Below, in pieces: positions 12,378-62,861 of a DNA stretch of 64,000 bases. Every line of letters begins with the position of its first letter. Within the stretch, counting starts at the first letter, position 1. Below the pieces are notes generated by a model. It made no database searches. It saw only the letters and a program-made list of their open reading frames with translations, and had not been told where the DNA came from. The stretch lies in the NCBI RefSeq assembly GCF_013350005.1, contig NZ_JABVWW010000001.1, positions 186,001 to 250,000 of the forward strand. Direction: 5' to 3'. Source of the stretch: Methylocystis silviterrae (GTDB taxonomy: Bacteria; Pseudomonadota; Alphaproteobacteria; Rhizobiales; Beijerinckiaceae). Made by a program: the position numbers and the translations under genes.

Positions 12378-13025
12378 TCACACCGCGCGTGTGCCGGGCG
12401 TCTCGTCCTTGCGATAGGCGGTGCCGAACACATAGTCCCACCAGATCGCGTGAACGCCGAAGCCTTTCTCGGCGTCGCGGAAATGATGCAGCATATGCAG
12501 GCGTTTCACTAAGCGGCCAAACTCGGATTTCGGCTGCCCGTGATGCGTCCAGTAGTGCACGCAATCATAGATCACATAGCCCGTGATGAAGCCGGCCAGC
12601 GCCGGCCAGGCGAATGTCGCGCCGAAGAGCACGCGGGCGCAGACGAGCGCGATCAGCATGATCGGCGCCGAGAGCAGCGGCGGCATGACGAGCCGCAGCG
12701 GGTCGTTGGGATAGATGTGATGTACGCCGTGGATGAGGAACTGGAAGCGCGGCCCAAGCCCGAACGGCAGCGCGAAAACGGTGTGGAAGAGATAGCGGTG
12801 GCCGAAATATTCGGTCAGCGTCCAGCCGAGATAGCCGACGACGAGGCCAAGCACGACCAGCGTCACGCTATTGAGCGTGAGCGAATAGATCAGCAGGCCG
12901 AGAATGATCGGGCAATAGACGATCACCGGCGTCAAATGATGCACGCGCGACAGCTTGTCGAGAAGAGCGCTCTCGAAGAGGCGGGGCGAAGCGTCGAGCG
13001 CTTCCGTTCTTGCGTCCTGAGACAT
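12378..13025 (-). CDS. Fatty acid hydroxylase / sterol desaturase superfamily membrane protein
   Basis: A 215-residue membrane di-iron protein. Four hydrophobic segments surround histidine clusters typical of the superfamily: HRYLFH (76-81), HGVHH (99-103), HYWTHH (157-162) and HMLHH (177-181). The HGVHHIYPND box and short length resemble the catalytic half of fatty acid 2-hydroxylases (FA2H/Scs7), which hydroxylate the N-acyl chain of ceramides, but carotenoid and sterol hydroxylases share the fold. There is no cytochrome b5 domain. It is the last gene of a four-gene operon, 3 bp after the desaturase stop. Context argues for a lipid hydroxylase acting on the same lipid as the desaturase; the exact position hydroxylated cannot be read from sequence. 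Confidence 0.8.
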   Translation of the reverse strand: MSQDARTEALDASPRLFESALLDKLSRVHHLTPVIVYCPIILGLLIYSLTLNSVTLVVLGLVVGYLGWTLTEYFGHRYLFHTVFALPFGLGPRFQFLIHGVHHIYPNDPLRLVMPPLLSAPIMLIALVCARVLFGATFAWPALAGFITGYVIYDCVHYWTHHGQPKSEFGRLVKRLHMLHHFRDAEKGFGVHAIWWDYVFGTAYRKDETPGTRAV

Positions 13026-13028
13026 GGG

Positions 13029-14024
13029 CTACTCCGCCGGCGCGACGATGGGGGCTTCGCGCCCCGCCGCCTGCGTCACATTTTCCGACCGCGTTCCCAG
13101 CGAATAGGTCGGATCGAAGATGAATGTGACGAGCAGCGCCACCCAGGAGCGATGGCAACGCAGATCGTCATAGAACTCCGGCGCCATCGCTTTCAGCTCC
13201 GGCAAACGGTTCCACGGGATCTCGTGAAAATCGTGATGCTCGTTGTGATAGCCGATGTTGAGCGCGAGCGTATTGAGCGGCCCATAATAGTCGAACGTTC
13301 CCTGGTCGGGTCCGAAGGCGAAATGCTCCTGCAGCCAGCGCGCGCTCAACGGATGCAGGCCGCCGACAGAGAACCAGAAGGAAAAGAAAAGATAGAGCAG
13401 GGCGTTCGGCCCGAAGGCCCAGAGCACGAAAAGATCGAAGACGGCGATGACGGCGGTATTGATATAGGTCCAGGTTCCCCAGATCGGCACCGTGCCCTTG
13501 AGGCGTGACAGGCGCGCAAGCTGGATCGCGGGGAAGAAGAAGAGCCACACGGCCTTGCGCCAACCGCTGTTGCCGACCCATTCGACCTCCCAGCGGCTCG
13601 GAATGTCGGCGTCATAGTCATAGGCCGACAGATGCGAATGATGCTTGATGTGATAGCAGCGAAAGCCCATCGCCGTCGGAAAGGCGTTGGGAAGATCGGC
13701 GAGGATCGCCGTCCATTTGTTGGCGAGCGGGCTCTCGAACACGCAATTGTGGATCGCGTCGTGGATGATGACGAAATTGGCGTGGTTGGCGAAGGCGCCG
13801 ACGCAGATCGCCATCAAGAGCGACAGCCACCAGTAGGAGAGGCCGAGCGAACCCAAGATCGCGGCGATGACGAGCTGGCCGACAAAAATCGCCGCCGTGA
13901 TCTTGAAGGTCACCGGATCTTTGCCGAAGAGTTCGCGCACTTGCGGATATTTATCGAGGATCAACTTGCGCCGTTCGACATGCGAGCGGTCGGCGCCATT
14001 GGCGGTGACGGATATGCCATTCAT
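13029..14024 (-). CDS. Membrane fatty acid desaturase, sphingolipid delta-4 desaturase (DES1)-like
   Basis: A 331-residue integral membrane di-iron desaturase with the three histidine boxes HDAIH (88-92), HIKHH (125-129) and HNEHH (260-264). Besides the boxes it shows blocks that I recognise from eukaryotic dihydroceramide delta-4 desaturases: GGLHPLSARWLQEHF (221-235) and YGPLNTLALNIGYHNEHHDF (247-266). Ordinary acyl-lipid desaturases lack the GLHP block. DES enzymes insert the 4,5 trans double bond in the long-chain base of dihydroceramide. The start codon overlaps the stop of the upstream acyltransferase-like gene by ATGA, so the two are translationally coupled. Desaturase is certain; substrate assignment rests on similarity recalled from memory plus the operon. 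Confidence 0.85.
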   Translation of the reverse strand: MNGISVTANGADRSHVERRKLILDKYPQVRELFGKDPVTFKITAAIFVGQLVIAAILGSLGLSYWWLSLLMAICVGAFANHANFVIIHDAIHNCVFESPLANKWTAILADLPNAFPTAMGFRCYHIKHHSHLSAYDYDADIPSRWEVEWVGNSGWRKAVWLFFFPAIQLARLSRLKGTVPIWGTWTYINTAVIAVFDLFVLWAFGPNALLYLFFSFWFSVGGLHPLSARWLQEHFAFGPDQGTFDYYGPLNTLALNIGYHNEHHDFHEIPWNRLPELKAMAPEFYDDLRCHRSWVALLVTFIFDPTYSLGTRSENVTQAAGREAPIVAPAE

Positions 14025-15235
14025 GACGTTGCATCCTGTAGCTGAGTTGCCGTGACGCCGTCGCGCATACGCATGGCCTCGTCGCCGCCGCCGACCGTGA
14101 GGCGCTTTTCATAGATGCGGTGAATCTTGTCGACCTTGCCGCCGAACATTTCGATCGGCCGGCGCATGTCGGCGTTGCTTTCCAACACCCAGCCCGCTTC
14201 GAGATGCGGAACGCGGATTTTCGCGTGGCGCCGCCGCATCTCTTCGACGAGCGACAGGAAGATCGCGCCGCCGGTCGCGCTTCGTTGCAGCGTCTTGCGC
14301 GTGCCAAGCAGCAACAGCCGCGCCGATTTGAACTGATGCGAGCGGAACCGCTTGAACGCGCGCGCCCAGCCGAAGGGGAACAGGCGACCGTTGAGATCGG
14401 CCAAAATCTCGTTGAGATTGGGAAGCGCGATCGCGAAGGACTGCGGAACGCCGTCAAGCTCGACGACGATGCCGAAATCCTCCGGCACGAGAAATTGCAG
14501 CGCGTCGGCGTCGGAGTCGAATTCTTCCTTGGTGAAGGGCACGAAGCCCCAATTTCCGCTCCAGCCGTCGTTGAACAACTCGGCCATCAGCGCGGTTTCG
14601 CCCTGCTTCAAGGCCTTCATGTTCAACGGCCGGAGTTTCAAGCGATCGCGCCATTCGCGCCGCGTTGAAATGCGCGCCGGCTTGTCGCTCTCGTCGCTTG
14701 AAATTTCGAAGCGGTAGGACAAGAGGTCCTGCGCCTTCTCATACCCCAGCGCCTCGAGATGGCGCGAGAGATAGGGCGGATGCCAGGGCATGAAAAACAT
14801 CGGCGTCGCGTCGAAGCCATCGACAAGAAGTCCGCACTCCTTGTTGACCGAGGGCGAGAACGGTCCGTTGATCCGCTCCGCGCCCTTGGCGCGCAGCCAG
14901 TCCTCGGCGGCCTGGGTCAGCGCGCGCACGACCTCGATGTCGTCGATTGCGTCGAGCGCGCCGAATTGCGCATTGGAGGCGCCGACCGGCGTGACGCCGG
15001 GCTTATAGATTTGCGCCATGACGCGCCCGACCCATCGGCCGTCCCGGCGGGCGAGAAATTTCCGCTCTTCGACGAGCTTGTAATGCGGGTTGAGCTTATG
15101 CGCGAAGACGCTCCAGCGCTCGATGTCGAGCGGCGGCGCGAAGCCCTCCGCACCGGCATAGAGCAATCGCGGCAGCCTGCAGAAGGTCGCAAAGCGAAAA
15201 GGGCCGTCGACCGGAAGAATCTCGATCCGCGCCAT
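14021..15235 (-). CDS. Large GNAT-like N-acyltransferase, candidate bacterial ceramide synthase
   Basis: A 404-residue soluble protein of the family often labelled GNAT or, wrongly, dATP pyrophosphohydrolase. Landmarks are RFATFCRLPRLLYAG, FAPPLDIERWSVF, HYKLVEERKFLARRDG, RVMAQIY, RINGPFSPSVNKECGLLVDGF (shown in two parts: RINGPFSPS and NKECGLLVDGF), and MFFMPWHPPYLSRHLEALGY. The bacterial ceramide synthase bCerS of Caulobacter belongs to the GNAT superfamily and, as far as I recall, to this type of protein; bCerS acylates the amine of 3-ketosphinganine. Lying directly between the alpha-oxoamine synthase and the DES1-like desaturase, this gene is the natural candidate for the N-acylation step. 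Family is likely; the ceramide role is inference. Confidence 0.65.
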   Translation of the reverse strand: MARIEILPVDGPFRFATFCRLPRLLYAGAEGFAPPLDIERWSVFAHKLNPHYKLVEERKFLARRDGRWVGRVMAQIYKPGVTPVGASNAQFGALDAIDDIEVVRALTQAAEDWLRAKGAERINGPFSPSVNKECGLLVDGFDATPMFFMPWHPPYLSRHLEALGYEKAQDLLSYRFEISSDESDKPARISTRREWRDRLKLRPLNMKALKQGETALMAELFNDGWSGNWGFVPFTKEEFDSDADALQFLVPEDFGIVVELDGVPQSFAIALPNLNEILADLNGRLFPFGWARAFKRFRSHQFKSARLLLLGTRKTLQRSATGGAIFLSLVEEMRRRHAKIRVPHLEAGWVLESNADMRRPIEMFGGKVDKIHRIYEKRLTVGGGDEAMRMRDGVTATQLQDATS

Positions 15236-15303
15236 GATGCTAGTCCTAGCGGCAAGTCGGCATTAACCGAAAGCGTCAAAGTGACGCGGATATGGCGAAT
15301 GGC

Positions 15304-16542
15304 CTATCCGCCGGCCATGGCGGCGGCGACGATCTGATGGGCCTCTTCCGTCACCGGCGGCATGTCGCGCAGCGTCTGGATGACGCCGCGGATTTCTGCT
15401 TCGCTGTGGTTCGCCGAGAAAAAGAAGCGCAGCCGCGGCCCGTCCTTCGGCACGCCGATGCGCACGACCGGCGGCACGTAATAGCCGTTCTCCAGCAGAT
15501 GCTGCGACGCCCACATGGTCTCGACGTCGCTCGAGAACAGGATCGGCACGACCCCGCGGCCGATCGCCGGCCCGGTCGAGAATCCCGCCTCATGCGCGAC
15601 CGTGCGGAAGAGCTCGGCGTTGTCCGCGAGCTTGGCGATGCGCCAGGTCTCTTCCTGCATCAGCCGCAGGGCGGTGCGGGCGGCGGCGAGAATGACGGGC
15701 GACAGGCCGACGCTGTAGACGAAGCCCGGCAGCGTATAGCGGAACCAGTCGATGACCTGCTTCTTGCCGCAGACATAACCGCCGCAGGACGCGAGAGTCT
15801 TCGACATGGTGCCGACGATGAGGTCGATGCGCGCGGGGTCAACGCCCTGATGTTCGGCGAGGCCGCGGCCTGTCGCGCCGAGCACGCCGAGAGAATGCGC
15901 TTCGTCGACGAGCAGCCAGATCTTGTATTTTTCCTTGATGGCGAGGAGCCGCGGCAGGTCGGCGGTGTCGCCGTCCATGCTGTAGACGCCCTCCACCACA
16001 ATCAGGACGTTGCGGTATTCCTCGCGGTGGCGCGCGAGCAGATGTTCGAGATGATCCAAGTCGTTGTGGCGGAATTTGACGACCTGCGCCGGCGCGCCGT
16101 CGGCGCCGGCGACGATGCTGTTATGCGCGAGTTCGTCGATGAAGATCGCGTCGCGCTTGCCGCTCATCAGCCAGGCGATCGTCGTCACATTGGAAAGATA
16201 GCCGGAGACGAGCGTCAGCGCGCTTTCCATGCCAAGGAATTCGGCGATCTCCGCCTCGAACGGCTTGTGCGTGGTGCGTTCGCCGCCGACGAGCCGCGAG
16301 GCCAGCGCGCCGATGCCGAGGCCGTCGATCTCGCGCTTTGCTTCCTCGCGAATCCGCGGGTGATTCGCGAGGCCGAGATAATCGTAATTGGCGAAGCTGA
16401 CGAAATGCTTGCCCTGCGCCTCGAACTCGGCGCGCAGCCTGTCGATCTGGGCGAAGAACGGATCGCTGAACTCCAGCAAGGCGTTGCCAGCAAAACGGAA
16501 TCGCCTTGCCGCGTAATCCTCTAAGCTCTTATGCTTCGTCAC
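15304..16542 (-). CDS. PLP-dependent alpha-oxoamine synthase, serine palmitoyltransferase-like
   Basis: A 412-residue fold-type I PLP enzyme of the family of serine palmitoyltransferase, KBL, BioF, HemA and CqsA, which condense an amino acid with an acyl thioester. Visible: YDYLGLANHP, the aspartate/histidine pair in DEAHSLGVLG (D213, H216) and the PLP lysine in GTMSKTLASCGG (K248). RFRHND-like and EGVYSMDGD segments resemble bacterial serine palmitoyltransferase. Unlike BioF or KBL it has an extra N-terminal stretch (LEFSDPFFAQIDRL), as SPT does. It heads the operon with an acyltransferase, desaturase and hydroxylase, which favours long-chain base synthesis over biotin or haem. A CqsA/LqsA-type alpha-hydroxyketone synthase is the main alternative. 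Confidence 0.75.
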   Translation of the reverse strand: MTKHKSLEDYAARRFRFAGNALLEFSDPFFAQIDRLRAEFEAQGKHFVSFANYDYLGLANHPRIREEAKREIDGLGIGALASRLVGGERTTHKPFEAEIAEFLGMESALTLVSGYLSNVTTIAWLMSGKRDAIFIDELAHNSIVAGADGAPAQVVKFRHNDLDHLEHLLARHREEYRNVLIVVEGVYSMDGDTADLPRLLAIKEKYKIWLLVDEAHSLGVLGATGRGLAEHQGVDPARIDLIVGTMSKTLASCGGYVCGKKQVIDWFRYTLPGFVYSVGLSPVILAAARTALRLMQEETWRIAKLADNAELFRTVAHEAGFSTGPAIGRGVVPILFSSDVETMWASQHLLENGYYVPPVVRIGVPKDGPRLRFFFSANHSEAEIRGVIQTLRDMPPVTEEAHQIVAAAMAGG

Positions 16543-56917: not shown

Positions 56918-57208
56918 GTTCGCTGTCGCCCTCCGTTGTTTCGGGCGGCGTTTTCGCATGAAGCGCTCCGCCGGGCCACTGCAAATCCGCCGAGGGCGCG
57001 GCGGGCTTTATTTTCGAGGCCAAACGCCTTAACCAGTGCCGACTGCGCCCGAGGGCGGGAAAAGGGGCGCTGGAGCGGAAGAGCCAGAGGCGGGCGGTTC
57101 TGGCCACGCGCCCAGATTTAAAGGCGCTGGATCGGCGCCGCCGCGTCAATGCGTCGCGCGCGAGCGCGAGTTGTCGTGGGCGGCGCAGAGCCTGAAACGG
57201 AGGGATTC

Positions 57209-57484
57209 GTGACTGATAATCCGCAGGACAAGAATCAGCTCGTCGACGAGATCATCGAAGTGATCGCGTCGGAAGGCATGGTCGACAAAAGCAAGATCAC
57301 CCCCGACGCGTCGATCGAGAGCCTCGACCTCAAATCCGTCGACATCGTTATGATTCTCACGGCGCTGGAGGAGAAGTTCAACGTCTACATCCCCATGGAC
57401 GGGTCGCTGCAGGAAGCCAAAGACGTCAAAAGTCTGATCGAGGCGATCGCGGACCACATCCAGAAAGAGCGCGAGAAGCAGTAA
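57209..57484 (+). CDS. Acyl carrier protein, specialised
   Basis: A 91-residue carrier protein carrying acyl groups on a phosphopantetheine arm. The attachment serine is S43 in the variant motif LDLKSVDIV, not the DSLDTVE of housekeeping AcpP. The helices are acidic (DEIIEVIASEGMVDKSKI, ADHIQKEREKQ). GTG at 57209 follows CGGAGGGA. The ketosynthase starts directly after the stop (TAAATG), so the ACP heads a seven-gene plus-strand operon. Confidence 0.88.
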   Translation: MTDNPQDKNQLVDEIIEVIASEGMVDKSKITPDASIESLDLKSVDIVMILTALEEKFNVYIPMDGSLQEAKDVKSLIEAIADHIQKEREKQ

Positions 57485-58720
57485 ATGGCATTCTCGCGAG
57501 CGCGGGCCGAGGGGCGCCGCGTCGTCATTTCTGGCATGGGCGCGGTTGGCGCCTCTGGAGTCGGCGCGCAAAAGCTGTGGGAAGCGGCGCGCGACGGCGT
57601 CGCCCAGATTCGTCCGCTCAAGACAGAGCGCCCTTATGACGGGCGCATCAAGATCGCGGCGCAGGTCCCCGACTTCAATCCCGCCGACTACATCGAACCC
57701 AACGTTCTTCCGTTCTGCGATCCCTTTACGCAGTTCTGCATCGTCGCCGCCGACGAAGCGGTGGCGCAGGCGGGTTTCGGACGCAAGGACGTCGCCGGGC
57801 CGAGAACGGCCGTCATCATCGGCTCCGGCATCGGCGGCATGACGACGATCGAGGACGGCATCTACCGCTATTATGTCGAAGGAACGCGGCCCGAGATGTT
57901 GAGCGTTCCCAAGCTCATCCCGAGCGCCGCGCCTGCGACCCTGGGGATGCGCTATTCTTGCCACGGCCCGACATTCGCGATCGGAAGCGCCTGCTCCTCG
58001 GCGACGCAGTCGATCGGACTTGGCATGCAGATGATCCGACAGGGCCTTGTGGACAAGGCCATCGTCGGCGGCGCCGAGGCCTGCGTCATCAACGCGACGA
58101 TCCGCGCGTGGGAAGGCCTTCGCGTGCTGAGCCCGAATTTGTGCCGCCCCTTCTCCAAAGGCCGCAACGGCATGTCGCTTGGCGAAGGCGCGGCGGTTTT
58201 CGTCCTGGAAACGGAGGAGGCGGCGCGAGCGCGCGGCCACGCGCCCCTATGCGAACTCGCCGGCTACGGCACGACGAGCGACGCCAAGGATCCCGTGCGG
58301 CCGGATCTTGAAGGCGCGTCGAACGCGATCGCCCTGGCGCTCGAAGATGCGGGAATGGCTCCGCAGGAGATTCATTACGTCAACGCGCACGGCACCGCGA
58401 CCCACGCCAACGACATCACCGAAGCCGAAGCGATTCTGCGCGTGTTTGGCGATTATGGACGGGTCGTGCCGGTGTCGTCGACGAAACCTATTCACGGCCA
58501 CGCGCTCGGCGCGAGCGGCGGCTTGGAACTCGCCATCACCATACAGGCGCTTCGCGAACAGATCGCGCCGCCGACCATCAATTTTCTGGAGCACGACCCC
58601 AAGTGCCCGCTTGACGTCGTCCCGAACGCGGCGCGCAAGCACAAGATCGACGCCGCCATGTCGAACTCCTTCGCTTTCGGAGGGATCAACGCCGTGCTGA
58701 TCGTGCGTCATGCAGTCTGA
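57485..58720 (+). CDS. Beta-ketoacyl-ACP synthase, FabF type
   Basis: A 411-residue KAS II-type condensing enzyme, extending an acyl-ACP with malonyl-ACP. The triad is complete: C170 in GSACSSATQS, H302 in NAHGTATHAND and H337 in PIHGHALGASGG. MSLGEGAAVFVLE and NSFAFGGINAVL are also typical. Residues 110-140 (SGIGGMTTIEDG) are like FabF. It follows the dedicated ACP without a gap and overlaps the hot-dog gene that follows by 11 bp. It would act in chain building for the lipid made by this operon. Confidence 0.9.
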   Translation: MAFSRARAEGRRVVISGMGAVGASGVGAQKLWEAARDGVAQIRPLKTERPYDGRIKIAAQVPDFNPADYIEPNVLPFCDPFTQFCIVAADEAVAQAGFGRKDVAGPRTAVIIGSGIGGMTTIEDGIYRYYVEGTRPEMLSVPKLIPSAAPATLGMRYSCHGPTFAIGSACSSATQSIGLGMQMIRQGLVDKAIVGGAEACVINATIRAWEGLRVLSPNLCRPFSKGRNGMSLGEGAAVFVLETEEAARARGHAPLCELAGYGTTSDAKDPVRPDLEGASNAIALALEDAGMAPQEIHYVNAHGTATHANDITEAEAILRVFGDYGRVVPVSSTKPIHGHALGASGGLELAITIQALREQIAPPTINFLEHDPKCPLDVVPNAARKHKIDAAMSNSFAFGGINAVLIVRHAV

Positions 58721-59105
58721 CCGGCCGCTTGCGCTGGGGCCTTTTCGGCTGCGCGTTGATCCGGCGCGCGCCGCGGCCTATGCGCAAGAAACCGGCGGCG
58801 ACGGCGCAAGCGTTCCGCTCGCCTATCCGGCGATCTGGCTTGCCGAGCCTTCGCTTTTTTCGGTTGTGCGCGACCTTTGCGCCCGGCGCGACGTCGTGCC
58901 GGTGCATGAGTCGCAGAGCTTTTCCTATGACGCGCCCCTCGTCGCGGGTGAGAGTTACGACTTGAGCGTCACCATGAGCAGCGACGAAGAGCCGCCGCGT
59001 CTGACGATGGTCGGGACAGTCGCAACGCCGCAAGGCGAGCCTTGCGCACGAATCGAAACCATATTGCGGCTCGTGCCGCGCGCGGGATTTGGAAGCGCGT
59101 CATGA
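58710..59105 (+). CDS. Hot-dog-fold protein, MaoC N-terminal-like
   Basis: A 131-residue protein resembling the N-terminal half of double-hot-dog dehydratases (FAS1_DH-like). It shows PLAYPAIWLAEPSLFSVVRDL, VPVHESQSFSYDAPLVAGE and VGTVATPQGEPCARIETIL, but lacks the Asp-His hydratase motif, which the next gene has. The two would form a heterodimer giving one complete dehydratase, as in MaoC-type pairs. Start overlaps the ketosynthase stop; stop overlaps the next start by ATGA. Family assignment is moderate. Confidence 0.7.
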   Translation: MQSDRPLALGPFRLRVDPARAAAYAQETGGDGASVPLAYPAIWLAEPSLFSVVRDLCARRDVVPVHESQSFSYDAPLVAGESYDLSVTMSSDEEPPRLTMVGTVATPQGEPCARIETILRLVPRAGFGSAS

Positions 59106-59506
59106 GCGATCCCATCAAGGTCGGCGACAAACTGCCGGAGACCGTCATAGGCCCATTCGACGCGCCTTCGCTTGCGCGCTACGCCGAGGTCTCGGGCGAC
59201 GCCAATCCATTGCATCTCGACGACGCCGTGGCGGCGGCGATCGGGCTCGCCGCGCCGCCGGTACATGGCATGAAGCTTCTGGCTGCGTTTGAACCGATGC
59301 TGAGGGCCTGGCGCGGCGACCTCGTCATCGCTTCGCTTGCGGGGAAGTTCGTGCAGCCGATCTTGCGCGGCGAGACCGTCAGGCTGTCGGGCCGCGTGTT
59401 GCGCGCCACCGAAAACGAGATTTTCGTCCGTCTGGTGGCCTATGGCGCGGCGCGGGCGCCCGGCATCGTCGGCGAAGCGACCTTGCGGCCGAGGGCGGCC
59501 ACATGA
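59102..59506 (+). CDS. MaoC family (R)-specific dehydratase
   Basis: A 134-residue hot-dog hydratase/dehydratase removing water from 3-hydroxyacyl chains. The catalytic Asp-His motif is intact in YAEVSGDANPLHLDD, followed by GLAAPPVHGMKLLAAFEP. The start at 59102 overlaps the previous stop (ATGA); together with the protein encoded there it probably makes a split double-hot-dog enzyme. Substrate is likely acyl-ACP of the operon carrier; inference. Confidence 0.88.
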   Translation: MSDPIKVGDKLPETVIGPFDAPSLARYAEVSGDANPLHLDDAVAAAIGLAAPPVHGMKLLAAFEPMLRAWRGDLVIASLAGKFVQPILRGETVRLSGRVLRATENEIFVRLVAYGAARAPGIVGEATLRPRAAT

Positions 59507-59539
59507 ATGATCGGCTGCGCCGTGGAGCGGGGCGCGCAT

Positions 59540-60400
59540 ATGGCTAAGAGCGCTGTTCGGGTTCTTATCACCGGCGCCTCAAGCGGCATTGGGCGCGCCT
59601 TGGCGCTCGCCTATGCGCGCGAAGGCGCGAGCCTTGTCTTGCTTGGCCGCGACGCCGAGCGGCTCGACGCCGCCGCGCGCGCCTGTCTCGCAGCCGGCGC
59701 AGAGGAGGCGGAGACCCATGTCGCCGACGTGCGGGATCGCGACGCGATGGCGCGTATCGTTCAATCTGCGCATGAAAAGCGCCCCATCGACATTCTCGTC
59801 GCCAACGCCGGCGTCGCGACGGGCCTTTCGCCCGGCCAGCTTCTCGAAACGCCCGAGGCGGTCCGAGCAATGCTCAAGATCAATGTTGATGGCGTCTTCA
59901 ACACGGTCGAGCCGGCAATTCTGCCGATGTGCGCCCGTAAGAGTGGCAGAATCGCTATTGTCGGCTCGATGGCCGGCGTGCGCGCGCTCCCGCATTCGCC
60001 GGCCTATTGTGCGGCGAAGGCGTGCGTGCACATGTGGGCGGACTCCCTGCGCGCCCAGCTCGCAGCCCATGGCGTGCATGTCGCGCTGATCGTGCCGGGT
60101 TATGTGAAGACGCCCATGTCGGCGCGCACCATCGTGAAGACGCCCCTTTCGGCGCGCACTCGCCTAAAGACATCGGCGTCGGCGGGCGTCGAATCCTGGC
60201 AGCCCAGCGCCATGTCCGACGGAGAAGCCGCGCGCATCATCAAGAACGGGCTGGAGCGCCGTCGCAACGTCATCGCCTTTCCGCGTTATATGTATTGGGC
60301 GATGCGCCTCTTCTCCCTCTTGCCGGCGGCGCTCGTCGATGGCGTCATGCGCCAGTTTCCTGCCGAAGTGCCAGAGACGCCGGAACGGGAGAATTCGTGA
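59540..60400 (+). CDS. Short-chain dehydrogenase, candidate ketoacyl or ketosphinganine reductase
   Basis: A 286-residue SDR. The nucleotide-binding motif is TGASSGIG (11-18) and the catalytic Ser-Tyr-Lys are in VGSMAG, and YCAAK (Y156, K160). Directly after PGYVKTPM the substrate loop contains a 10-residue tandem duplication (VKTPMSARTI then VKTPLSARTR, residues 189-208). The C-terminus is hydrophobic (YMYWAMRLFSLLPAALVDGVM), suggesting membrane association, as in 3-ketodihydrosphingosine reductases (TSC10/KDSR). The start at 59540 has GGAGCGGGG upstream; an ATG at 59507 directly after the previous stop is possible. The GT21 gene overlaps its stop by GTGA. Confidence 0.85.
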   Translation: MAKSAVRVLITGASSGIGRALALAYAREGASLVLLGRDAERLDAAARACLAAGAEEAETHVADVRDRDAMARIVQSAHEKRPIDILVANAGVATGLSPGQLLETPEAVRAMLKINVDGVFNTVEPAILPMCARKSGRIAIVGSMAGVRALPHSPAYCAAKACVHMWADSLRAQLAAHGVHVALIVPGYVKTPMSARTIVKTPLSARTRLKTSASAGVESWQPSAMSDGEAARIIKNGLERRRNVIAFPRYMYWAMRLFSLLPAALVDGVMRQFPAEVPETPERENS

Positions 60401-61557
60401 CGGCCTACACCGTCCTTACTTGGGCCGCAGGCGGCTATTGGATGATCGCCGTCGCTTTGCTTGTCGTCTCTGTCGCGGCGACGATCGCGCAGCCCTGGCT
60501 TGCCGCGCGCCGCGCCACGCGCCGAGACCAGCCGCCGGTCTCGGTCGTGCTTCCCGTCAAGATGCTCGAGGACCAGTTCGACCGCACGCAAGAGTCCGCG
60601 CTGACGCAGCACTACCGCGATTTCGACGTGACCGTCTCCGCAACCGACATCAAGGAGCCGGCCGTCGAGCGCATGCGCGCCATTTTCGCGCGTCACCCGT
60701 CTGTTCCGTCGCGCATTCTCCGCTCGACAGCGAAATTCGCGGTCAGTCCGAAGGTCGATAATCTTTATGCGCCGTTCATGCAGGCGACGCACGACGTCAT
60801 ACTGATGAAGGACGCCAATGTGCTGCTTGAGCCGGACGCGCTGGCGCAGCACGTCAGGCAGCTGACGGACGATGTCGGGCTCGTCTGCGCCATCCCGTAT
60901 TGTGCACGACTCGAGAATTTCGCCGCGCAAGTCGAGGCTGCGATCATTAACGGTCCGCATGCCCGCATGCTGTTTCTCGCCTCGGCGCTGGGGCAGGGGC
61001 ATGGCGTCGGCAAAATCATGCTGTTTCGACGTTCGGATTTCCTGCGCGCGGGAGGCTTTGACGCGATTTCCCATACGGTCGGCGAAGACAACGCCTTGGC
61101 CAAGGCGATGCGGCGGATCGGCAAACGCCCGGTCTTTTCCCACAGGCTTGTTCGTCAGGAGCTCGGCGCGCGCACGTTCGACGATGTTTATCAGCGGCAA
61201 TTGCGCTGGAGCGTCATTCGCCGCAGCGACGAACTCATCTCATTCCTCGCCGAGCCAATATGCCAAGCGGTTCCAGCAGTTATCGCTTCAGCGCTCGCGG
61301 CCCCGCTCGTCGGGATTTCGCCAATTGCCGCCGCGTCGGGGACGCTTATGCTGTGGTTTGCGCTTGAGACATTGCTTTCTGTGGCCAAAGGATGGCAGTT
61401 ATCGTGGGCTGCGCCTGCGGTGTTTGTGGTCCGCGAGGCGACGATGCTGGCGGTCTGGTTGAACGCCTGGGTCACTGACCAGGTGGTTTGGGCGAGGGAC
61501 AGCGTGAACGCGCGCGCCGGGGCGAAGCCCTCGCCGGTTCCGCACGAAGAAGGATAG
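60397..61557 (+). CDS. GT21 glycosyltransferase, ceramide glucosyltransferase-like
   Basis: A 386-residue membrane glycosyltransferase. Segment order matches the ceramide glucosyltransferase family: an N-terminal membrane span, VSVVLPVKMLEDQFDR, FAVSPKVDNLYAPF (compare NPKINNL in human UGCG), the Asp of MKDAN (D139), GLVCAIPYCARLENFAAQVE, the Asp of GED (D231), and the (R/Q)xxRW signature RQLRW (R267-W271), then C-terminal membrane helices. GT21 enzymes put glucose (or, in some rhizobia, sugars processively) on ceramide or diacylglycerol. The hopanoid-associated HpnI group is related and is the main alternative. GTG start at 60397 overlaps the SDR stop. Confidence 0.85.
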   Translation: MTAYTVLTWAAGGYWMIAVALLVVSVAATIAQPWLAARRATRRDQPPVSVVLPVKMLEDQFDRTQESALTQHYRDFDVTVSATDIKEPAVERMRAIFARHPSVPSRILRSTAKFAVSPKVDNLYAPFMQATHDVILMKDANVLLEPDALAQHVRQLTDDVGLVCAIPYCARLENFAAQVEAAIINGPHARMLFLASALGQGHGVGKIMLFRRSDFLRAGGFDAISHTVGEDNALAKAMRRIGKRPVFSHRLVRQELGARTFDDVYQRQLRWSVIRRSDELISFLAEPICQAVPAVIASALAAPLVGISPIAAASGTLMLWFALETLLSVAKGWQLSWAAPAVFVVREATMLAVWLNAWVTDQVVWARDSVNARAGAKPSPVPHEEG

Positions 61558-61565
61558 GCCGTTTG

Positions 61566-62861
61566 GTGCTGGGGCTTTTTCAATTCCTCGTCGACGCGGT
61601 CGCGATGGTCTGCGCTTCGATCCTGATGGCGATCGGAATCGGCTATCTGATCGTCATCGGCCGCTTCTGTCACGACCAGCTGCGCGGCGTGCGCGATCCC
61701 GAAGCGCCTGCCATCCCTGACACGGATCTGCCGCGGGTCGTGCTTCAGATCCCCGTTTTCAACGAGCCGCTCGTGACCGAGCAGTCGTTGCGCTGCGTCG
61801 CGCTTCTCGACTGGCCCAAGGATAGGCTGCGCATCCAGCTTCTCGACGATTCGACGGACGAGACGAGCGCGCGGGCAGACGCGGTGGCGGCGGAGCTTCG
61901 CGTCGGCGGCGCCGTGATCGACCATGTGCGGCGCGCCGATCGCTCGGGCTTCAAGGCGGGGGCCTGCGCGCATGGCCTCACGCTCACCCACGAACCCTTT
62001 GTCGCCATGCTCGACGCCGACTTCCGTCCGCCGCCCAATTGGCTCAAACGAACGGTCCCGCTTTTTCTGACCGACGAGCGCATCGGCTTCGTGCAGTCGC
62101 GCTGCGAGTTCCAGAATTTCGAGAAAAACTGGCTGACGCGCGCCCAGGGCCTCGTGCAGGACGGCCATTATCTCGTCGAACAGCGCTCACGCGCGCATGC
62201 CGGCTGGCTCTTTCAATTCAACGGCACCGGCGGAATCTGGCGACGCGCGACGGTCGAGGACGCCGGCGGCTGGTCCGACTATTCGCTATGCGAGGACCTC
62301 GACCTCACCGTGCGCGCGGCGCTCCAGGGATGGCATGGGCTTTTTGTCTCGGAGCCGCCGATTCCCGGTCAGGTGCCGGAGGGAATCCGCGATTTCCGCC
62401 GCCAGCAAAGGCGATGGTCGAACGGATTCGTGCAGGTCGCGCAAAAGACCGTCCTGCCGATCTGGCGTTCGCCATGGAGCCTGACGCGCCGCGTGATGGC
62501 GATCTCGCTGATCGCTCATCAGATTTTCTTCCCCACAGCCGCCATCGGACTCATCGCCTTCTTCCTTGGCGTGATCCTGCACGGATCGCTCGCGCCCTTC
62601 GCCGGGATGTTGGAGATCATCGGACTCATGACGGTCCTGGTGGCGCTCGGCATCACGCTGCCGCCCTATCTGGCGCTCAAGCGCGGGACCCTCGCCGATT
62701 ATGTGAAAACGGTCGCGTCGATTCCGCCGCTGATGATCTATCTCGCCTTCGCCAATGGCGCGAAGATCCTCCAAACCCTGCGCGGGCGTAAATCGACGTT
62801 CAAGCGCACGCCCAAGCTCGACCATGAAGCGGCGACGCCGATCGACGCTGAGGTGGAGTAG
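61566..62861 (+). CDS. GT2 glycosyltransferase, CslA/CslC-like processive type
   Basis: A 431-residue membrane glycosyltransferase with one N-terminal span (VDAVAMVCASILMAIGIGYL, about residues 8-30) and four or five C-terminal spans. The catalytic part has VLQIPVFNEPLV, LDWPKDRLRIQLLDDSTDET, FVAMLDADFRPP, FNGTGGIWRR, CEDLDLT and QQRRW (Q280-W284), the D,D,D,Q(Q/R)xRW set of processive beta-glycan synthases. The LDWPKDR block resembles plant CslA/CslC and bacterial mannan synthases. It follows the GT21 gene after 8 bp. GTG at 61566 is chosen as start; TTG at 61563 is possible. It may elongate the head group made by GT21, or build a glycan. Confidence 0.85.
   Translation: MLGLFQFLVDAVAMVCASILMAIGIGYLIVIGRFCHDQLRGVRDPEAPAIPDTDLPRVVLQIPVFNEPLVTEQSLRCVALLDWPKDRLRIQLLDDSTDETSARADAVAAELRVGGAVIDHVRRADRSGFKAGACAHGLTLTHEPFVAMLDADFRPPPNWLKRTVPLFLTDERIGFVQSRCEFQNFEKNWLTRAQGLVQDGHYLVEQRSRAHAGWLFQFNGTGGIWRRATVEDAGGWSDYSLCEDLDLTVRAALQGWHGLFVSEPPIPGQVPEGIRDFRRQQRRWSNGFVQVAQKTVLPIWRSPWSLTRRVMAISLIAHQIFFPTAAIGLIAFFLGVILHGSLAPFAGMLEIIGLMTVLVALGITLPPYLALKRGTLADYVKTVASIPPLMIYLAFANGAKILQTLRGRKSTFKRTPKLDHEAATPIDAEVE

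Follow-up and report, generated by a model that had tools for sequence, protein, structure and literature searches.

We analysed a stretch of 64,000 nucleotides from Methylocystis silviterrae (assembly GCF_013350005.1, contig NZ_JABVWW010000001.1, positions 186,001 to 250,000), which is called the window below and is G000:C11:186001-250000 in our numbering (G-codes are genomes, G000 being that of the window, and L-codes are fetched loci). ORF calling places four co-directional open reading frames (ORFs) on the minus strand between 16542 and 12378. By homology they encode, in order of transcription, an alpha-oxoamine synthase (AOS), a GNAT-type acyltransferase (GNAT), a DES1-family desaturase (DES) and a putative Scs7/FA2H-type hydroxylase (HYD) (Table 1). 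GNAT and DES overlap in an ATGA, DES and HYD are separated by three bases (TAG-CCC-ATG), and all four reading frames are open. An initial annotation of this DNA had described such a four-gene operon, and the ORF calls agree with it in coordinates, gene order, ATGA coupling and the 3-bp gap; the operon is thereby confirmed as real.

Table 1. Genes of the four-gene operon and of the second operon, in positions of the window
Feature	Position	Strand	Basis and remarks
AOS, alpha-oxoamine synthase, serine-palmitoyltransferase-like	15304..16542	-	412 aa; GTG start; pyridoxal phosphate (PLP) Lys248; PF00155
GNAT-type N-acyltransferase, bacterial ceramide synthase homologue	14021..15235	-	404 aa; homology
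DES, DES1-family desaturase, putative dihydroceramide Delta4-desaturase	13029..14024	-	331 aa; PF08557 and PF00487
HYD, Scs7/FA2H-type putative ceramide fatty-acyl hydroxylase	12378..13025	-	215 aa; PF04116; PDB Scs7
Acyl carrier protein (ACP)	57149..57484	+	PF00550; start probably 57209; near DES in 9/37 named loci
FabF-like beta-ketoacyl-ACP synthase (KAS)	57485..58720	+	PF00109/PF02801; NCBIfam fabF 394.5 bits, below cut-off
Small protein	58710..59105	+	same position in relatives; hotdog-type suspected by eye only
MaoC-like dehydratase	59042..59506	+	PF01575; start probably 59102, ATGA junction
Short-chain dehydrogenase/reductase (SDR), candidate 3-keto(dihydrosphingosine/ceramide) or 3-ketoacyl-ACP reductase	59507..60400	+	PF00106; near DES in 13/37 named loci
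GT21, ceramide-glucosyltransferase-like	60397..61557	+	PF13506, 155 bits; probable GTG start in GTGA junction
Family-2 glycosyltransferase (GT2)	61488..62861	+	PF13632/PF13641; start probably ~61560; near DES in 13/37 named loci

Conservation of the operon

The nearest named relatives of the operon proteins belong to Methylocystis, and other genomes have the four-gene operon too: identities with Methylocystis rosea SV97 (L122) are 99% for AOS, 98% for GNAT, 96% for DES and 94% for HYD. To place it more widely, relatives of DES were collected from GTDB genome contigs. At least 550 were found and the best 80 were kept, which by title comprise 37 alphaproteobacterial loci (two titled Proteobacteria only), 28 Verrucomicrobial loci, one labelled Acidobacteria and 14 from Bacteroidota. 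AOS, GNAT and DES stand together in 35 of the 37 named alphaproteobacterial loci, and in 34 they have the same order and orientation; the exceptions are one rearranged locus (L147) and two that start within DES at a contig end (L135 and L154). Given this co-occurrence, the association of the genes is not due to chance. HYD is present in 22 of the 37, and all four genes in 21.

Within the family of the window's genome, 27 further DES loci were fetched from other genomes, with the AOS-GNAT-DES trio present in 25 and HYD in 13, and the order of the trio is kept across eight genus codes. DES was detected at E<1e-100 in 28 of 119 family genomes (10 more have weak matches alone), and GNAT at more than 440 bits in the identical 28 (7 more have a weaker GNAT); these 28 genomes are related and so do not represent 28 independent events. 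By comparison, the sphingolipid-specific domain of DES, PF08557, occurs in only one of 337 evenly drawn genomes of the class, namely the window's own. The tight coupling of GNAT and DES in the window would suit a passage of ceramide from one enzyme to the other, but in relatives the spacing between the two genes varies from 0 to 430 bp (between BLAST match ends).

That the operon is silent or vestigial in Methylocystis is very unlikely. Promoter and terminator scans of the operon region gave matches at chance level only (no sigma-70-like match between 12000 and 17000 versus 0.8 expected, in a scan of low value), and neither a bacterial DES1-type desaturase nor a methanotroph ceramide was found in those titles and abstract openings of the open-access literature that the searches listed. 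Against this stand the open frames of all four genes, the gene order kept across eight genus codes and the invariant catalytic histidines of DES.

The same gene families recur in another phylum. Among 29 Verrucomicrobial/Acidobacterial loci, HYD was found in 28, AOS in 24, GNAT in 18 and all four in 17; where at least 4.5 kb lies beyond DES, all four are present in 16 of 17 loci (one labelled Acidobacteria). At L160 and L177 the genes follow one another as DES-HYD-AOS-CDP-alcohol phosphotransferase-GNAT (Pfam was run on the L160 proteins only). The gene between AOS and GNAT at L160 (L160:11265-12191) is CDP-alcohol phosphatidyltransferase-like (PF01066), and its position suggests a phospho head group instead of sugars at that locus. 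The Acidobacterial occurrence is doubtful, because the AOS of the locus titled "Acidobacteria gp1" (L177:8001-13215) is almost identical to that of the Verrucomicrobial L189 (end branches 0.0035 and 0.015), which allows for a misbinned contig or a recent transfer. In addition, related AOS and GNAT genes lie close together without DES in the stretch at L222, L224, L225 and L226, and GNAT lies beside ACP, KAS and MaoC genes, also without DES in the stretch, at L222 and L223. In view of these arrangements, DES and HYD may be later additions to an AOS-GNAT core, or this core may be the more mobile part.

Family assignment of the four enzymes

The initial annotation had named a DES1-like desaturase, an FA2H-like hydroxylase, a GNAT of the bacterial-ceramide-synthase kind and a synthase resembling serine palmitoyltransferase (SPT) with PLP lysine K248, and the searches that follow support these names, that of the synthase moderately. 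DES matches FA_desaturase (PF00487) at 7.4e-24 with 85.3 bits (cut-off 29.7) and carries the N-terminal, sphingolipid-specific Lipid_DES domain (PF08557) at 34.7 bits (cut-off 23). Its His boxes (H88, H92, H125, H128, H129, H260, H263 and H264) are invariant in 30 aligned rows, and it is 35% identical over 309 aa to human DEGS1. PDB sequence searches with DES, and likewise with GNAT, were uninformative. These features point to a member of the Delta4-desaturase family and to putative 4,5-trans desaturation. The enzyme could instead be a C4-hydroxylase, be bifunctional or hydroxylate elsewhere, which would give a phytoceramide-like product without the double bond. We regard this as fairly unlikely: DEGS2 has been named as a maker of phytoceramide (PMC11765627), and in Caulobacter the DesA-family protein CC_0202 is reported to add a hydroxyl group to the amide-linked acyl chain (PMC11324152), but a separate hydroxylase is already encoded in the operon. 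Membership of the Delta4-desaturase family is also favored by the Lipid_DES domain together with the overall sequence match, although these alone do not exclude a hydroxylase, regiochemistry being unreadable from sequence.

HYD matches PF04116 at 4.2e-16, and its sole strong PDB match is yeast Scs7 (4zr1, 8.6e-24), with which it shares the His motifs and an RLVMPP block. This block is also found in the aligned hydroxylases of the family and of the Verrucomicrobial/Acidobacterial loci (the last letter differs in one), and it is absent from five hydroxylases that adjoin the bacterial ceramide synthase (bCerS) gene in other alphaproteobacterial loci. Assignment of HYD to that latter type was rejected, as the five score 35-54 bits in comparison with 91 bits for Scs7. 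HYD is thus predicted to be of Scs7/FA2H type and to 2-hydroxylate the amide-linked acyl chain.

No Pfam match was obtained for the GNAT of the window or for its homologue at L064. The GNAT label is based on homology, with the Verrucomicrobial homologue of L160 falling in PF00583 (Acetyltransf_1, 40.2 bits, cut-off 20.7). Matches to this protein occur in 42 of 289 sampled genomes of the class, and stretches of up to 17 kb were fetched around 20 of the 42. Nine aligned alphaproteobacterial homologues from outside the family share 35-39% identity with the window GNAT (39% for L064, 37% for L069 and 35% for L074), and that of L055 shares 41%. Five of the homologous loci (L055, L064, L065, L069 and L074) contain an acyl carrier protein gene and canonical spt genes, and L055 and L064 also have, in a row, genes for a CerR-like epimerase and for a synthetase of the acyl-CoA/ACP kind. 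Along its length, the window protein is homologous to the GNAT encoded at loci that have spt, acp and cerR. In the literature, bCerS is presented as an acyltransferase of the cytoplasm that works together with Spt and CerR (PMC11087976). The window GNAT is therefore classed as a bacterial ceramide synthase homologue, with N-acylation of a long-chain base as its predicted function.

AOS matches PF00155 at 2.4e-48, and its fold-family pattern is complete by motif: besides K248 it has H140, which we take to be the stacking His, and D213 and H216, presumably the Asp/His pair. Its top PDB match is SPT (3a2b/8guh, 1.1e-61), with KBL (7v58, 2.1e-58) narrowly behind and cysteate-C-fatty acyltransferase (28eh) at 1.2e-45. 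In a 45-row tree, the Methylocystis-type AOS clade groups with SPTs and Verrucomicrobial AOS versus BioF, KBL and ALAS with support of 95/89, under a long-branch warning. At one relative (L093:3642-4863) the AOS match falls into two overlapping pieces, a possible frameshift or sequencing error.

Several results weigh against a sphingolipid function of the operon. AOS remains below every NCBIfam SPT cut-off (NF047599, 293 < 500; NF047600, 278 < 640; NF047603, 208 < 670), and its highest raw NCBIfam score is for bioF, at 344 bits and short of the cut-off of 426. When BioF and KBL alone serve as outsiders, in a 29-row tree that also carries a long-branch warning, support for the SPT grouping falls to 89/88. 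HYD was not found in the fetched stretch around DES in 15 of the 37 named loci, and in Bacteroidota DES stands alone, with the other genes not nearby, in 14 of 14 loci. Searches of the window's genome with one query each, accompanied by control genomes, found no orthologue of CerR (best match 59 bits versus 217 in control G079) or of the dedicated synthetase AasR (best match 280 bits, in a 958-aa frame, versus 596 in control G079), and no match to AcpR at E<=0.001 (62.6 bits in control G066). In Rhodobacteria, SPT is stated to co-occur with ACP and ACS whenever it is present (PMC9386255). Finally, glycolipids and ornithine lipids are reported from Methylosinus trichosporium, and the word "ceramide" is absent from the text of that article (PMC9239053), the presence of the operon in that strain not being established.

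Other observations bear on these points. The top score on the bioF model is not evidence for BioF, because two canonical SPTs tested, those of L064 and L055, score 319 and 338 bits there too; the same two exceed an NCBIfam SPT cut-off (644 and 634 versus 500). With a long stem to the AOS clade and a long-branch warning on each tree, the trees offer moderate evidence, and we accordingly hold the grouping of AOS with SPTs at moderate strength. The genome also contains a separate ALAS gene (over its cut-off) and BioF-like and KBL-like genes (below theirs). AOS is not clearly a BioF, KBL or CqsA, and assignment as plain BioF, KBL or ALAS was rejected on the unreached bioF cut-off, the tree grouping and these separate genes. 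As to HYD, two family genomes that lack it near DES (G330 and G295) have it elsewhere, near a GT21 gene (L253 and L254). In Bacteroidota, an AOS with at least 487 bits on the Bacteroidota SPT model is encoded elsewhere in six of eight genomes (L161, L174, L191, L194, L200 and L201); one of the six exceeds the cut-off of 640, and E. coli KBL scores 348 bits on this model. If it is an SPT, the AOS clade would be an exception to the rule of PMC9386255 as to a dedicated ACS and AcpR. The 958-aa frame, which lies just outside the window (G000:C11:265253-266842), has an acyl-CoA/ACP synthetase domain and is 36% identical to the dedicated synthetase of L064; it is not linked to the pathway, because several DES genomes searched have no comparably strong match.

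It is highly improbable that the operon makes an unrelated product, with AOS a homologue of BioF or KBL and the desaturase and hydroxylase acting on fatty acids or carotenoids. Such a product would agree with the raw bioF match and with weak matches of DES to the CrtR and CrtW models, but the latter, at 29 and 26 bits, are far under the cut-offs of 475 and 350, and a role of DES as a carotenoid enzyme was rejected for this reason. The bioF score is under its cut-off, and the two canonical SPTs tested score nearly as high; ALAS, BioF-like and KBL-like proteins are encoded elsewhere in the genome, and the association with a ceramide-synthase-type GNAT is conserved.

A second operon in the window

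Clustering of the genes that neighbor the operon in relatives, followed by a search of the window's genome for GT21 and SDR genes, revealed a second operon of seven tight genes on the plus strand (57149-62861), 40 kb from the first (Table 1). In 13 of the 37 named loci, the DNA fetched around DES (up to 8 kb) holds at least two of its genes, and GT21 is there in five of the 37. In two family genomes whose AOS-GNAT pair is located elsewhere (L218 and L220), DES itself sits with GT2, SDR and MaoC genes (L098 and L099). Most of the Methylocystis and Methylosinus relatives examined have the two operons at separate places, as the window does. Because genes of the second operon lie near DES in relatives, the two operons are tied into one pathway.

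The second operon offers a candidate ketoreductase, a candidate acyl-ACP supply and candidate enzymes of sugar transfer. For the SDR, a role as 3-ketoacyl-ACP reductase alongside KAS and MaoC is just as possible. The small protein has no Pfam or NCBIfam match. Two other assignments were tried and rejected: the GT21 enzyme as HpnI (160 bits on the HpnI model versus a cut-off of 310) and the acyl carrier protein as an orthologue of AcpR (its score against the AcpR set does not exceed that against E. coli AcpP).

Proposed pathway and comparison with known systems

We infer the substrates, products and order of reactions of the pathway as follows. AOS would form a 3-keto long-chain base by condensing a long acyl thioester with an amino acid, most probably L-serine, and GNAT would N-acylate this base in the manner of a bacterial ceramide synthase. 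Acylation before reduction has been argued for Caulobacter (PMC11087976). A ketoreductase encoded outside the four-gene operon, for which the SDR at 59507-60400 is the best candidate, would then reduce the 3-keto group. In the resulting dihydroceramide, DES would create a trans double bond between C4 and C5 of the base, and HYD would place a hydroxyl group on the amide-linked acyl chain, probably at C2. Sugars would be added by the GT21 and GT2 enzymes, and the ACP, KAS and MaoC proteins would probably supply acyl-ACP, replacing the AasR-AcpR pair of Caulobacter. The products would probably be hydroxylated, Delta4-unsaturated glycosylceramides.

The first step has an alternative, in which AOS uses alanine, glycine, cysteate or another amino acid and a ceramide analogue results, such as a 1-deoxyceramide or a sulfonolipid-like lipid. 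The long branch of the AOS clade and the failure to reach any SPT equivalog cut-off would suit it, but we consider it unlikely, as the top PDB match is to SPT, well ahead of the cysteate enzyme 28eh although with KBL close, and a GT21 enzyme would presumably need a C1 hydroxyl. With L-serine as the most probable substrate, we think it likely that the locus makes ceramide-type lipids by the proposed pathway. Homology, the conserved gene order, co-occurrence across genomes and the reappearance of the gene families in a second phylum support the sphingolipid reading, which the initial annotation had already put forward. A qualification is that the four-gene operon has no 3-ketoreductase of its own, the candidate SDR lying in the second operon, beyond the coordinates given in that annotation.

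A broader proposal, on which our judgment is evenly balanced, is that the DES1-type desaturase is widespread in Pseudomonadota, Verrucomicrobiota and Bacteroidota, accompanied in the first two by an Scs7/FA2H-type hydroxylase; that soil and methane-oxidizing bacteria make sphingosine-type, 2-hydroxylated (glyco)ceramides; and that in methanotrophs an ACP/KAS/MaoC/SDR operon replaces AasR-AcpR-CerR, with GT21 and GT2 adding the head group. Sphingosine's 4,5 double bond and ceramide's 2-hydroxyl group are generally regarded as refinements made by eukaryotes. Operons in which the enzymes for both go together with a bacterial ceramide synthase would bear on the origin of those enzymes, would extend the lipids predicted for type II methanotrophs and soil Verrucomicrobia by one class, and would give environmental lipid studies a bacterial source of sphingosine-type ceramides. 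The initial annotation had held that bacterial sphingolipid loci described so far lack both eukaryote-like steps in the same operon, and nothing contradicting this was found in the literature consulted, mostly as titles and abstract openings.

Compared with eukaryotic DES1/DEGS1, the window DES has the same Lipid_DES N-terminal domain, and His boxes and is 35% identical to DEGS1; it differs in being bacterial and in lying in an operon with AOS and GNAT. HYD resembles yeast Scs7 and animal FA2H in its top structure match and in its His and RLVMPP blocks (the comparison was with Scs7), whereas at 215 aa it consists of the Pfam hydroxylase domain alone, without a cytochrome b5 domain. The second-operon GT21 enzyme shares PF13506 with ceramide glucosyltransferases; in bacteria, GT21 enzymes are able to use other lipids as well.

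With the ceramide locus of Caulobacter crescentus (aasR-cerR-acpR-spt ... cerS/bcerS), the window shares a PLP-dependent alpha-oxoamine synthase and a GNAT-type ceramide synthase, the likeness of GNAT to CC_1154 being drawn through other alphaproteobacterial homologues. Unlike Caulobacter, the window's genome yielded no AasR, AcpR or CerR orthologue in the one-query searches, its AOS belongs to another clade, and its operon adds DES1-type and Scs7-type enzymes. The head-group candidates are glycosyltransferases here and phosphosphingolipid genes in Caulobacter (PMC11324152). In sum, the operon is real and conserved, is of sphingolipid type with predicted products, and differs in design from that of Caulobacter, having two eukaryote-like enzymes and a second operon that accompanies it.

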